DNA from: Microbacterium tenebrionis
Lineage (GTDB): Bacteria > Actinomycetota > Actinomycetes > Actinomycetales > Microbacteriaceae
Length of the DNA: 64,000 bases
Direction of reading: 5' to 3'
Assembly (NCBI RefSeq): GCF_903645325.1
Contig: NZ_CAHJXQ010000007.1
Span: 1 to 64,000, forward strand
The notes beneath the pieces were generated by a model, which was not told the origin of the DNA, searched no databases, and was given only the letters and a program-made list of their open reading frames with translations. Below, in pieces: positions 33,494-35,490 of this stretch. Position 1 is the first letter of the stretch. The number at the start of each line of letters is the position of its first letter. The position numbers and the translations under genes were made by a program.

Positions 33494-33781
33494 TTACTTG
33501 ACGGCAGCCTTGAGCTTGGAGCCGGCGGTCACCTTGACGCGCTTGCCGGCCGGGATCTTGATCTCGGCGCCGGTCTGCGGGTTGCGGCCGGTGCGGGCAG
33601 CGGTGTCGACCTGCTCGAACGAGATCCAGCCCGGGATCGAGACCTTGCTGCCCTTGGCAACAGCGTCCGAGACCGTGGCGAAGAGCGAGTCGAGGACGCC
33701 CGAGACGGTGGCCTGGCTCTGGCCGGTGGCGGAAGCGATGCTCGCGACGAGCTCGGTCTTGGTGATGGACTTGTCAGCCAT
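33494..33781 (-). CDS. hup: HU-family DNA-binding protein
   Basis: 95 residues. ITKTELVASIASATG and the arm region IPGWISFEQVDTAARTGRNPQTG with KIPAGKRVKVTAGSKLK identify an HU protein. It lacks the Lys/Ala-rich C-terminal tail of mycobacterial HupB, so it is the short form. ATG 33781 has a GGAGGAT RBS. Confidence 0.9.
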   Translation of the reverse strand: MADKSITKTELVASIASATGQSQATVSGVLDSLFATVSDAVAKGSKVSIPGWISFEQVDTAARTGRNPQTGAEIKIPAGKRVKVTAGSKLKAAVK

Positions 33782-34105
33782 GTCATCCTCCAGCGACGAT
33801 GTCACGTCGCATTGTCGTGTTTGTCGGAGCGGATGCTCCTGGTCGATCGACCGCCTCGAATGTACCAACCGACACCCGTATTTCCGCGTCATTTCGCGGG
33901 TTTTGGGGTTTTTTCAGGCGAGTCGAGTCACATCCGTCACATCCGTCACACGTTTCGGGGCGTGCTGCCCGGCCGCAGCGATCCGCCGAAGCGGAGGAGA
34001 TCTCACGAAATGGAGGAGTGGATGCCGCATCCGCACCCTCCGCTTCGAGCAAACTCCTCCGTTTCGCGGGTGCGCAGTGCAAGGATTGGGGTCGAGAACC
34101 GCGAC
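33782..34105. other. Intergenic region between hup and the DUF559 gene
   Basis: 324 nt with no gene. It holds the hup promoter area, a run GGGTTTTGGGGTTTTTTC near 33900, a short tandem repeat of CACATCCGT at 33930-33950, and palindromic repeat copy A at 33986-34070. The open frames crossing it have no homology. Confidence 0.7.
33986..34070. repeat. Palindromic repeat, copy A
   Basis: A REP-like element with arms 33993-34009 and 34044-34060 (13 of 17 complementary), inner GGAGG/CCTCC pairs and a GATGCCGCATC core at 34021-34031. It is about three quarters identical to copy B at 35024-35112, in the same orientation. It lies 36 nt beyond the stop codon of the DUF559 gene. Confidence 0.8.
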
Positions 34106-34927
34106 TCAGCCCAGGTGCAGCCCTTGAGCGACGGCATCCATGATCAGGGCCTGTACCTGCGGCCACTGATTCATCACTTGGTCGTATCCGACCCTGATGA
34201 CGTGATAGCCGCGCAGTTTGAGGCGCGCATCGTGTTCGATGTCGCTGGTGCGCTGCCGACCGACATGGTGCCCGCCGTCGATCTGCAGCACGAGCCGGTC
34301 GCCGATGAGGACGTCGACGGGCCGGTCGAGGATCCACACCTGCGGAAGCAGACGCAGCCTCAGCCACCGCAGTCGGTGGATCACCATCGTCTCGAGTCCG
34401 GAATCCGCGAACGGCCGCGCAGATTCCAACACCGCCAGCGCGGACGGTGGCAACGGCAGCCGAGCGATCGCCTCACGGTCCGTCAGCTGTTTGTTGAGGG
34501 CTGACTCCCATATGACAAGGGCTTCTTCGAACGGACGGCAGATCGCCACGAGAACCAGGGCGTTCACGAGAGAGTCCTCGCACGCGTCCGGGTTCCTGGG
34601 CACGACCGGTCGAGCCCAGTGGACGACCGCACCTCCGGGGTCGACGCGTCCCGAGTGCGCTGCGGCCGCGACGTGGATCCGTGAGCCGTCCGGCACCCAG
34701 AGACCGCTTCGCTCCGCGAGCGTTACGCAACTGAGGATGACGCCTCGCTTCACGGCGGTGATCTTCATGCGATCGGCATCCGGAAGTGCGACCCAGCCGT
34801 TGCGAACGGTCTGGATTCGTCCCGACTCTTTGAGTTTGCGCAGCGCGTGCGGACTCGCTCCGTCGAGCAACAGGGTGTTCGTCCGCGCGACTCCGCCGCG
34901 TTCCCGCAACTGTGCGATGGGATCCAT
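34106..34927 (-). CDS. DUF559 (Vsr-like nuclease fold) protein with N-terminal AbiEi-type winged helix
   Basis: 273 residues. The N-terminus (MDPIAQLRERGGVARTNTLLLDGAS, here residues 1-25) followed by ALRKLKESGRIQTVRNG is a small winged helix like that of type IV antitoxins. The C-terminal 110 residues form the DUF559 domain with VDVLIGDRLVLQIDGGHH and DARLKLRGYHVIRV, i.e. the D...(E/Q)xD pattern of Vsr/PD-(D/E)XK-like nucleases (Q replaces the usual E). ATG 34927 fits the wHTH start. Palindromic repeats A and B flank the gene. Confidence 0.75.
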   Translation of the reverse strand: MDPIAQLRERGGVARTNTLLLDGASPHALRKLKESGRIQTVRNGWVALPDADRMKITAVKRGVILSCVTLAERSGLWVPDGSRIHVAAAAHSGRVDPGGAVVHWARPVVPRNPDACEDSLVNALVLVAICRPFEEALVIWESALNKQLTDREAIARLPLPPSALAVLESARPFADSGLETMVIHRLRWLRLRLLPQVWILDRPVDVLIGDRLVLQIDGGHHVGRQRTSDIEHDARLKLRGYHVIRVGYDQVMNQWPQVQALIMDAVAQGLHLG

Positions 34928-35023
34928 CGTTCGAGGATGCCCGTCGGTGCGCGGGGGTGCCCGCGGGATCCCACGATCGGACAGAAATGCGCAACGTGCC
35001 ACTCCTGTGCAGGAGAAATGCGC

Positions 35024-35112
35024 GACGCGAAGACGGAGGACTTCACACGAAATGGAGGACGGGATGCCGCATCCGCGCCCTCCGGTTCGTGTGAAGTCCT
35101 CCCGTTCGCGGC
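35024..35112. repeat. Palindromic repeat, copy B
   Basis: Arms 35035-35051 and 35086-35102 are perfectly complementary over 17 bp, with an outer GCGAA/TTCGC pair, inner GGAGG/CCTCC and a GATGCCGCATC core. The element can fold into a long hairpin. It lies about 100 nt upstream of the DUF559 start and resembles copy A downstream of that gene. Confidence 0.85.
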
Positions 35113-35141: not shown

Positions 35142-35171
35142 AGGGGCGAGGATCCGAAGATCCTCGCCCCT
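35142..35171 (-). terminator. rpmB-rpmG-rpsN operon terminator
   Basis: AGGGGCGAGGATC (35142-35154) and its perfect complement (35159-35171) form a 13-bp stem. On the transcribed strand the loop is TTCG, a stable tetraloop, followed by TTTCG. It begins 13 nt after the rpsN stop. Confidence 0.88.
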
Positions 35172-35184
35172 CACAAAGCGATGC

Positions 35185-35490
35185 TTACCAGCTCGACTTG
35201 GTCACACCGGGCAGCTCGCCACGGTGGGCCATGTCACGGAAGCGCACGCGCGAGATGCCGAACTTGGTCAGCATTCCACGGGGGCGTCCGTCGATGGCGT
35301 CACGCGAACGCACGCGAACCGGCGACGCGTTGCGCGGCAGCTTCTGCAGGCCGACGCGTGCGGCCTCGCGGGCCTCGTCGGTCGCGTTCGGGTCGACCAG
35401 GGTCTTCTTCAGCTCGGCACGGCGCTCCGCGTAGCGGGCGACGATGACCTTGCGCTGCTCGTTGCGAGCGATCTTGCTCTTCTTCGCCAT
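35185..35490 (-). CDS. rpsN: 30S ribosomal protein S14, zinc-independent form
   Basis: 101 residues, the long S14 form without the CxxC...CxxC zinc motif ([20 protein letters not shown] replaces it). [14 protein letters not shown] and [18 protein letters not shown] are conserved. Lies 2 nt after rpmG. The linkage with Cys-poor L28 and L33 matches actinobacterial operons that are induced under zinc shortage, although in some Microbacteriaceae this may be the only copy. Confidence 0.95.

Follow-up and report, generated by a model that had tools for sequence, protein, structure and literature searches.

To our knowledge, the enzymes so far linked to palindromes scattered through genomes are mostly Y1 transposases (RAYTs). 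REPINs reach hundreds of copies. AbiEi antitoxins are DNA-binding autorepressors, TnsA is the nuclease of the Tn7 transposition complex, and I-Bth0305I is an enzyme that we take to be an EDxHD homing endonuclease. REPINs are described as short extragenic palindromes arranged as inverted pairs and dispersed in the genome; such repeats are tied to Y1 transposases, the RAYTs, each RAYT gene is accompanied by its own flavour of repeat, and several distinct enzyme-repeat groups are possible per genome (PMC3116915). In another report, a Caulobacter DUF559/Vsr-like protein is tied to DNA damage in cells without a methyltransferase (PMC12907096).

The window, meaning the whole stretch of 64,000 nucleotides of Microbacterium tenebrionis DNA that was analysed, contains a gene for a 273-aa protein (34106..34927, minus strand) between two palindromic repeats, A and B. 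An earlier note, made from the letters of this stretch, had likened the unit to REP elements with a RAYT but with a different enzyme, and the likeness is supported. As in the REPIN-RAYT system (PMC3116915), repeats of the gene's own flavour lie both beside the gene and dispersed, they are homogeneous within a genome, and several protein-repeat pairs occur per genome. Same-flavour repeats beside the gene and elsewhere in the same genome were found except in two genomes with orphan repeats (G077 and G197) and in six of 19 genomes compared in a separate test, both described below. Unlike a RAYT, the enzyme combines an AbiEi-like module with a Vsr-like nuclease; it is unrelated to the Y1 transposase and therefore not a RAYT. 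The repeat also differs in its four-box layout, the hosts are Actinomycetota, and no genome examined reached more than about 36 copies. Our preferred reading, which by analogy we regard as somewhat probable, is a gene-plus-repeat system that would work like REPIN-RAYT with an unrelated enzyme, its nuclease acting on the palindromes and thereby spreading them.

The locus and its two palindromes

According to the ORF listing and Pfam, the immediate neighbours of the gene are a HU-type nucleoid protein gene on the left (33494..33781, minus strand; Pfam Bac_DNA_binding, E = 2e-26) and rpsN on the right (35185..35490, minus strand; Pfam Ribosomal_S14, E = 9e-25), both outside the element. Repeat A (33992..34069) has its four boxes at 33993, 34012, 34036 and 34055, and repeat B (35034..35111), which lies upstream of the gene, has them at 35035, 35054, 35078 and 35097. 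An ordinary terminator-like hairpin after rpsN (35142..35171) is likewise outside the element, and similar hairpins occur in gene-free intervals.

A and B agree at 65 of 78 positions (83%) when compared directly, more than the three quarters noted earlier, and at 53 of 78 when B is reversed; they therefore stand in the same orientation. Compared with its own reverse complement, A matches at 54 of 78 positions and B at 62 of 78, and the arms of B, 27 nt long, are 89% complementary. A 27-nt pattern of the repeat, allowing up to three mismatches, matched only A and B in the 64-kb window, and none of 100 shuffles contained a match.

The long hairpin described in the earlier note thus stands, but the GATGCCGCATC core assigned to it does not mark the element. 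GATGCCGCATC is the loop of the repeat and is not distinctive, because the window contains it three times and has GCATCC/GGATGC as its 12th commonest 6-mer. We rejected it as the key element: it is an ordinary local oligomer, and other family members carry other loops. The distinctive part is instead the set of four boxes, in the layout B-B-loop-B'-B' (B here denoting a box) with direct copies 18-19 bp apart; each of the two window copies has two GGAGGA motifs 19 bp apart, the loop, and two inverted copies again 19 bp apart.

A predicted reader domain joined to a nuclease fold

By its predicted structure the protein is a winged-helix, AbiEi-like DNA-binding half joined to a nuclease fold like that of Vsr and I-Bth0305I, in agreement with the winged helix and Vsr-like fold proposed earlier. 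Pfam places DUF559 at residues 204-265 above the cut-off (E = 2e-6, 28 bits against 20.6) and AbiEi_4 at residues 4-42 below it (E = 0.008). Among 13 aligned relatives, matches at E ≤ 0.01 were obtained for DUF559 in all 13, for MTES_1575 in eight and for AbiEi_4 in seven. An AlphaFold model computed from 43 aligned sequences has a mean pLDDT of 92.5, and an AbiEi-like fold (residues 1-171) together with a Vsr/DUF559 fold (residues 173-270) covers it. E179, D205, D217, H221, D229 and D233 are among the positions invariant in the 43 sequences, and from the fold they are predicted to be catalytic. Ncbifam gave no match, the sole hit in phrogs was weak (E = 0.02) and of unknown function, and PADLOC returned weak AbiEi matches only. 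A Y1 (tyrosine) transposase domain was not found by Pfam, which gave DUF559 and weak AbiEi/MTES_1575 matches only.

Structure comparison of the model related each half to a described system from which the locus differs in other respects. Residues 1-171 match the antitoxin AbiEi (6y8q), part of the AbiE type IV toxin-antitoxin system, with Z 9.3 and rmsd 4.4 across 170 residues, but in the window protein a nuclease domain is fused on, and no AbiEii nucleotidyltransferase toxin is found among the immediate neighbours, HU and rpsN. Residues 173-272 resemble 3hrl, a DUF559 protein (Z 13.2), and the nuclease half matches Vsr (Z 10.7); the gene has HU and rpsN as its immediate neighbours and not a methyltransferase, and unlike Vsr and other DUF559 proteins, the window protein has a putative N-terminal reader and cognate repeats. 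Residues 176-272 resemble the catalytic domain of I-Bth0305I (3r3p, Z 13.1; sequence profile E = 0.002), yet the window gene is free-standing between genes, bracketed by palindromes and accompanied by dispersed solo repeats, and its protein has a different DNA-binding part. The fold match to Tn7 TnsA is weak (Z 7.0, below the tool's level of meaning and not above background), and the immediate neighbours are again HU and rpsN rather than transposition genes.

Palindromes often flank DUF559 genes across the family

The genome of the window encodes seven paralogs, none of them more than 52% identical to the window protein. Read by eye, palindromes flank each of the seven on both sides, and their boxes vary from paralog to paralog. 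Degenerate copies stand downstream of one paralog (L007), which does not pass the flank-similarity test described below, and upstream of another (L011). Compared with a classical insertion sequence, the flanking copies are direct and self-palindromic, and the paralogs are this far diverged from the window protein.

Homologs occur in 190 of 198 genomes of the genus and, at family level, in 82 of 120. Such palindromes often flank DUF559 genes in relatives: a long hairpin within 450 bp was present on at least one side of 47 of 80 named homologs and on both sides of 13, compared with one of 154 distant windows, although these controls, taken at a set distance from the gene whether or not the DNA there was intergenic, may understate ordinary intergenic hairpins. 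Gene-free intervals reached a hairpin score of at least 14 in one of ten cases between hup and rpsN (a solo repeat) and in three of eight between phoH and fumC (terminators). With a slightly lower threshold, 125 loci were scored, leaving out the contig-end loci L030 and L037 and the loci from the family-wide search; both palindromes were found at 45, one at 57 and neither at 23.

The two palindromes of a locus also resemble each other. The similarity of upstream and downstream flanks averaged 41.7 at the same locus vs 19.9 across loci (84 loci, three with short flanks having been left out), and a flank's own partner was the best of the 84 in 39 cases and among the top three in 58. These results bear on the possibility of chance or of an assembly artefact, that is, of ordinary GC-rich palindromes lying near an unrelated gene. 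Strong terminators can indeed pass the hairpin threshold, as in the three empty phoH-fumC intervals, but at least one palindrome was found at 102 of the 125 loci, and box similarity is common to both flanks and to the solo copies; we consider such an origin scarcely credible. The gene bracketed by A and B is one case of a large family.

In other genera of the family, at least one palindrome was found at 22 of 28 loci. A plasmid collection contained only two records matching the protein, both from Tsukamurella; one homolog has a palindrome pair with a common box by eye (L323, 1798-1869 and 2889-2968), and at the second locus the hairpin scan found no palindrome beside the gene. Since Tsukamurella belongs to a different order, the arrangement of gene and palindromes may reach beyond Microbacteriaceae.

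Two further arrangements were observed. Upstream of the gene in Agromyces italicus (L092), an array of CGCGCCCGAT repeats occupies the place expected for the four-box palindrome. In G168, a DUF559 gene has two near-identical long palindromes on one side, separated by about 200 bp (L328, 2409-2712).

Repeat symmetry and the possibility of RNA elements

Base pairing across 116 non-redundant palindromes is near 90% in the inner box, about 70% between the boxes and 88-97% in the heart of the outer box, and about 30-45% near the axis (≤8 nt). Within an arm, the signal of direct repetition is strongest at offsets of 18 and 19 (0.41 and 0.46, compared with ~0.23-0.33 elsewhere). Among 26 palindromes of the window's class, compensatory change was seen in 23 of 25 pairs; four misaligned rows had been removed from the palindrome alignment.

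Such hairpins could in principle act at the RNA level, as transcription terminators or RNA hairpins. They are strong and intergenic, the downstream copy begins a median of 29.5 nt past the gene match (76 cases), and the mismatches depend on the side of the gene: on the gene strand, upstream palindromes lean to G-T (87, against 63 A-C) and downstream palindromes to A-C (82, against 62 G-T). Over all 147 palindromes, however, G-T and A-C mismatches on the gene strand balance (149 vs 145), and the symmetry therefore seems to be kept in DNA rather than in RNA. Moreover, rpsN retains its own terminator beside the repeat. A TTTT tail was present in one of the 147, a test that is uninformative because ordinary terminators here rarely have one (8 of 85). 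Rfam gave sub-threshold matches only. An RNA-level role as the explanation of the family is, in our judgment, very improbable.

Dispersed copies and their association with the gene

We searched 59 genomes of the genus with a covariance model built for the repeat class of the window, counting hits on both strands. Matches were obtained in 50 of the 59 genomes, with a maximum of 71 two-strand hits, or about 36 repeats per genome. Copies were more similar within a genome than between genomes (41.9 vs 17.8, eight genomes), in a comparison that includes a few gene-flanking copies (G184, G187) and one local duplication (G077). The latter consists of two almost identical repeats, loops included, that lie 506 bp apart (L336, 200-820).

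In two genomes (G054 and G008), dispersed copies carry, by eye, the box of the gene-flanking pair of the same genome. We compared solo copies with flank palindromes in 19 genomes (21 less G001 and G051, where no flank palindrome passed), taking from each the best-scoring copy, in no case with a DUF559 match within 1.5 kb, and using part of each genome's DUF559 genes. The palindromes of the own genome ranked first in eight of the 19 and no lower than second in 13, a result that none of 20,000 permutations equalled; in six of the 19 the solo copy had no match to the gene flanks compared. In many of these genomes the gene's own repeat type is also found at other places without the gene, and gene and repeats therefore look like a matched pair, similar to a selfish repeat system but run by an enzyme for which such a role is not known.

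The genome of the window contains one solo copy matching the window's repeat, and this copy is absent from the collinear interval in three relatives. All solo copies whose surroundings were read (the own copy C4, C3 of G107 and two beside tilS in G054) are intergenic. The two in G054 flank tilS on both sides (L258, 690-2150) and appear to be independent copies.

The earlier note had named a distribution of palindromes independent of DUF559 genes as evidence against the proposed unit. Repeat number does follow the gene: the median was 26 hits in 34 genomes with a window-type gene and 2 in 25 without (p = 7e-6, Spearman 0.59, phylogeny ignored). A window-type gene was defined here by E < 1e-70, a cut set post hoc, and cuts of 1e-60 and 1e-74 give the same picture. 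Twenty further genomes were picked by hand; the ten with a strong homolog had 5-47 hits, the five with weak homologs only had 2, 26, 5, 0 and 26, and the five without a homolog in the genus-wide search had 0, 9, 0, 2 and 6. Profile search at E ≤ 0.001 found no homolog in G090, G160 and G024, which have zero repeat hits, and gave partial matches only in G103, G165 and G196, in the last within a longer open frame.

The association is not strict. Besides the solo copies lying away from the DUF559 gene, G077 and G197 have 26 two-strand hits each and, by profile search, one DUF559 gene each, which in G197 has another box and in G077 has no palindrome at the threshold used. These orphan repeat populations count against strict gene dependence, although loss of the gene once the repeats had spread would leave the same pattern. 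G026 and G029 carry a window-type gene and show zero hits for the window's repeat class, and their repeats may belong to another class.

The network of dispersed copies invites comparison with a domesticated regulator or chromosome organiser, in which the protein would bind the palindromes to control genes or to shape DNA topology, with autoregulatory operators in the gene-side copies. The match of residues 1-171 to AbiEi, a family of autorepressors, fits such a role, as does the intergenic position of the solo copies whose surroundings were read. An operator would nevertheless not be expected to have an equal counterpart downstream of the gene, and the median distance from the end of the upstream palindrome to the matched start of the gene is 141 bp (71 cases). 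Copy number varies widely by species, the own solo copy is absent in three relatives, and the nuclease-like motifs are invariant in the 43 sequences, all of which make this explanation distinctly unlikely. An operator as the full explanation was rejected because downstream copies and dispersed solo repeats exist.

Sites with and without the cassette

The gene lies within 1.7 kb of rpsN in at least 31 of 198 genomes. We took 20 hup-rpsN intervals from genomes with no adjacent gene among the matches listed; ten are short and gene-free, and the rest are longer or without a HU match. One gene-free interval (L046) holds a solo repeat of another box type, and G014 (L232) also has a solo repeat at hup-rpsN. 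An alpha/beta hydrolase gene is found instead in L042, and different genes are seen by eye in L058-L060 as well; the interval seems to accept insertions often.

One of the own paralogs (L009) sits between phoH and fumC. A query of the joined flanks of this site matched in 197 of 198 genomes, from which 20 intervals were taken, chosen by gap size. A DUF559 gene was present in 11 of them, making twelve species together with the own genome, eight were empty, and one had other content (L215). The box types of the palindromes at this site differ between species, with eight types by eye and four groups when palindromes were linked at score 25. Similarity between the two flanks of the same cassette was 35.1, compared with 17.7 across species, and none of 20,000 permutations was as high; ten of the twelve own-flank pairs scored at least 26, and the own partner ranked first in six cases and second in three. 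The exceptions are L223, with one clear palindrome only, and L218, where the flanks match by eye but not in the similarity test.

In the empty-site comparison suggested earlier, gene-free versions of two sites were obtained, and presence or absence of the element is clear at hup-rpsN, at phoH-fumC and at the own solo site, but its base-exact ends are not. No base-exact insertion junction was found at these three sites or in an all-against-all comparison of loci of at least 800 bases, because the spacers are too diverged, and no target duplication was found at the sites compared. The objection named in the earlier note, that empty sites might lack a clean junction, is thereby neither borne out nor set aside.

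A homing cassette would account for several of these observations. The nuclease would cut a solo or differently boxed palindrome as its target, recombination with the bracketed donor would place the gene in between two palindromes, and recombination between the flanks would later delete the gene and leave a solo repeat. In its fold the nuclease comes nearest to a DUF559 protein and to the catalytic domain of a homing endonuclease, the hup-rpsN site is seen with the gene and two repeats, with one solo repeat and with no repeat, and a single site is occupied by cassettes of different box types. However, high-copy genomes contain several times as many solo repeats as genes, spread over many different intervals, so that a gene-free route of spread is needed; and wherever both palindromes were seen the gene lies between whole palindromes, never splitting one. 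We regard homing as an unlikely explanation, though the most plausible of the alternatives considered.

The part of the protein that follows the box

Palindrome similarity follows protein identity (Spearman 0.378 over 100 loci, with none of 500 Mantel permutations as high). In a joint regression over the same number of loci, residues 56-110 received a weight of 0.474 and residues 1-55 a weight of 0.116, with little left for the rest. The phoH-fumC cassettes were also compared in pairs, 14 with the same box and 52 with different boxes, divided at score 25. Identity in same- and different-box pairs was 0.57 vs 0.46 for residues 1-55 (p = 9e-6), 0.67 vs 0.55 for residues 56-110 (p = 6e-8) and, with a smaller gap, 0.70 vs 0.64 for residues 111-170, while residues 171-273 did not track the box (0.75 vs 0.74, p = 0.21); these p-values are too small because pairs share members and are not independent. 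Among single positions, high values were seen at 88-99, which form the loop of hairpin 85-104, and near helix 26-35 (30, 34 and 36), but also at some that lie outside the reader (137, 141, 159, 160 and 268); as raw column values, all are modest (0.09-0.23). The covariation of residues 1-110 with the repeat lends indirect support to the earlier proposal that the protein recognises it, and suggests that the N-terminal part is what reads the box.

Under the REPIN-RAYT-like reading that we prefer, the N-terminal part would bind the boxes, and the nuclease would cut or nick at or next to the palindrome. Repair or replication of the cut could then spread the short repeat in trans and occasionally swap or lose the whole repeat-gene-repeat cassette. 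A more far-reaching version, to which we give slightly less than an even chance, is that of a widespread and so far undescribed mobile system of Actinomycetota, in which a nuclease of Vsr/homing fold with an AbiEi-type reader would mobilise four-box palindromes and swap cassettes at fixed sites. Its specificity would diverge repeatedly through the reader (helix 26-35 and loop 88-99), giving many protein-repeat pairs and several per genome.

Among the open-access papers listed by our searches we found no description of DUF559 or Microbacterium repeats like these, most subscription papers and all bioRxiv preprints lying outside the scope of the search, and we provisionally regard the system as undescribed. 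What we rate as new is that a known theme, an enzyme with dispersed palindromes, is built from unrelated parts. If the preferred reading is true, the same arrangement around an unrelated nuclease fold would give independent support to palindromes as replicating passengers of a resident enzyme, and part of a very common uncharacterised family, found in 190 of the 198 genomes of the genus, would gain a function. From the many box types at one site, a protein-DNA recognition code could be worked out with natural variants already at hand.

The spacer between the upstream palindrome and the gene contains short motifs. In the window, CTCCTGTGCAGGAG (35002..35015) lies just inside the upstream palindrome. 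Across 71 loci, CTGTGGA was found in this spacer at 20 and CTGCACA at 17, each compared with one occurrence in control stretches; the CTGCACA/CTGTGGA motif is possibly a promoter or operator.
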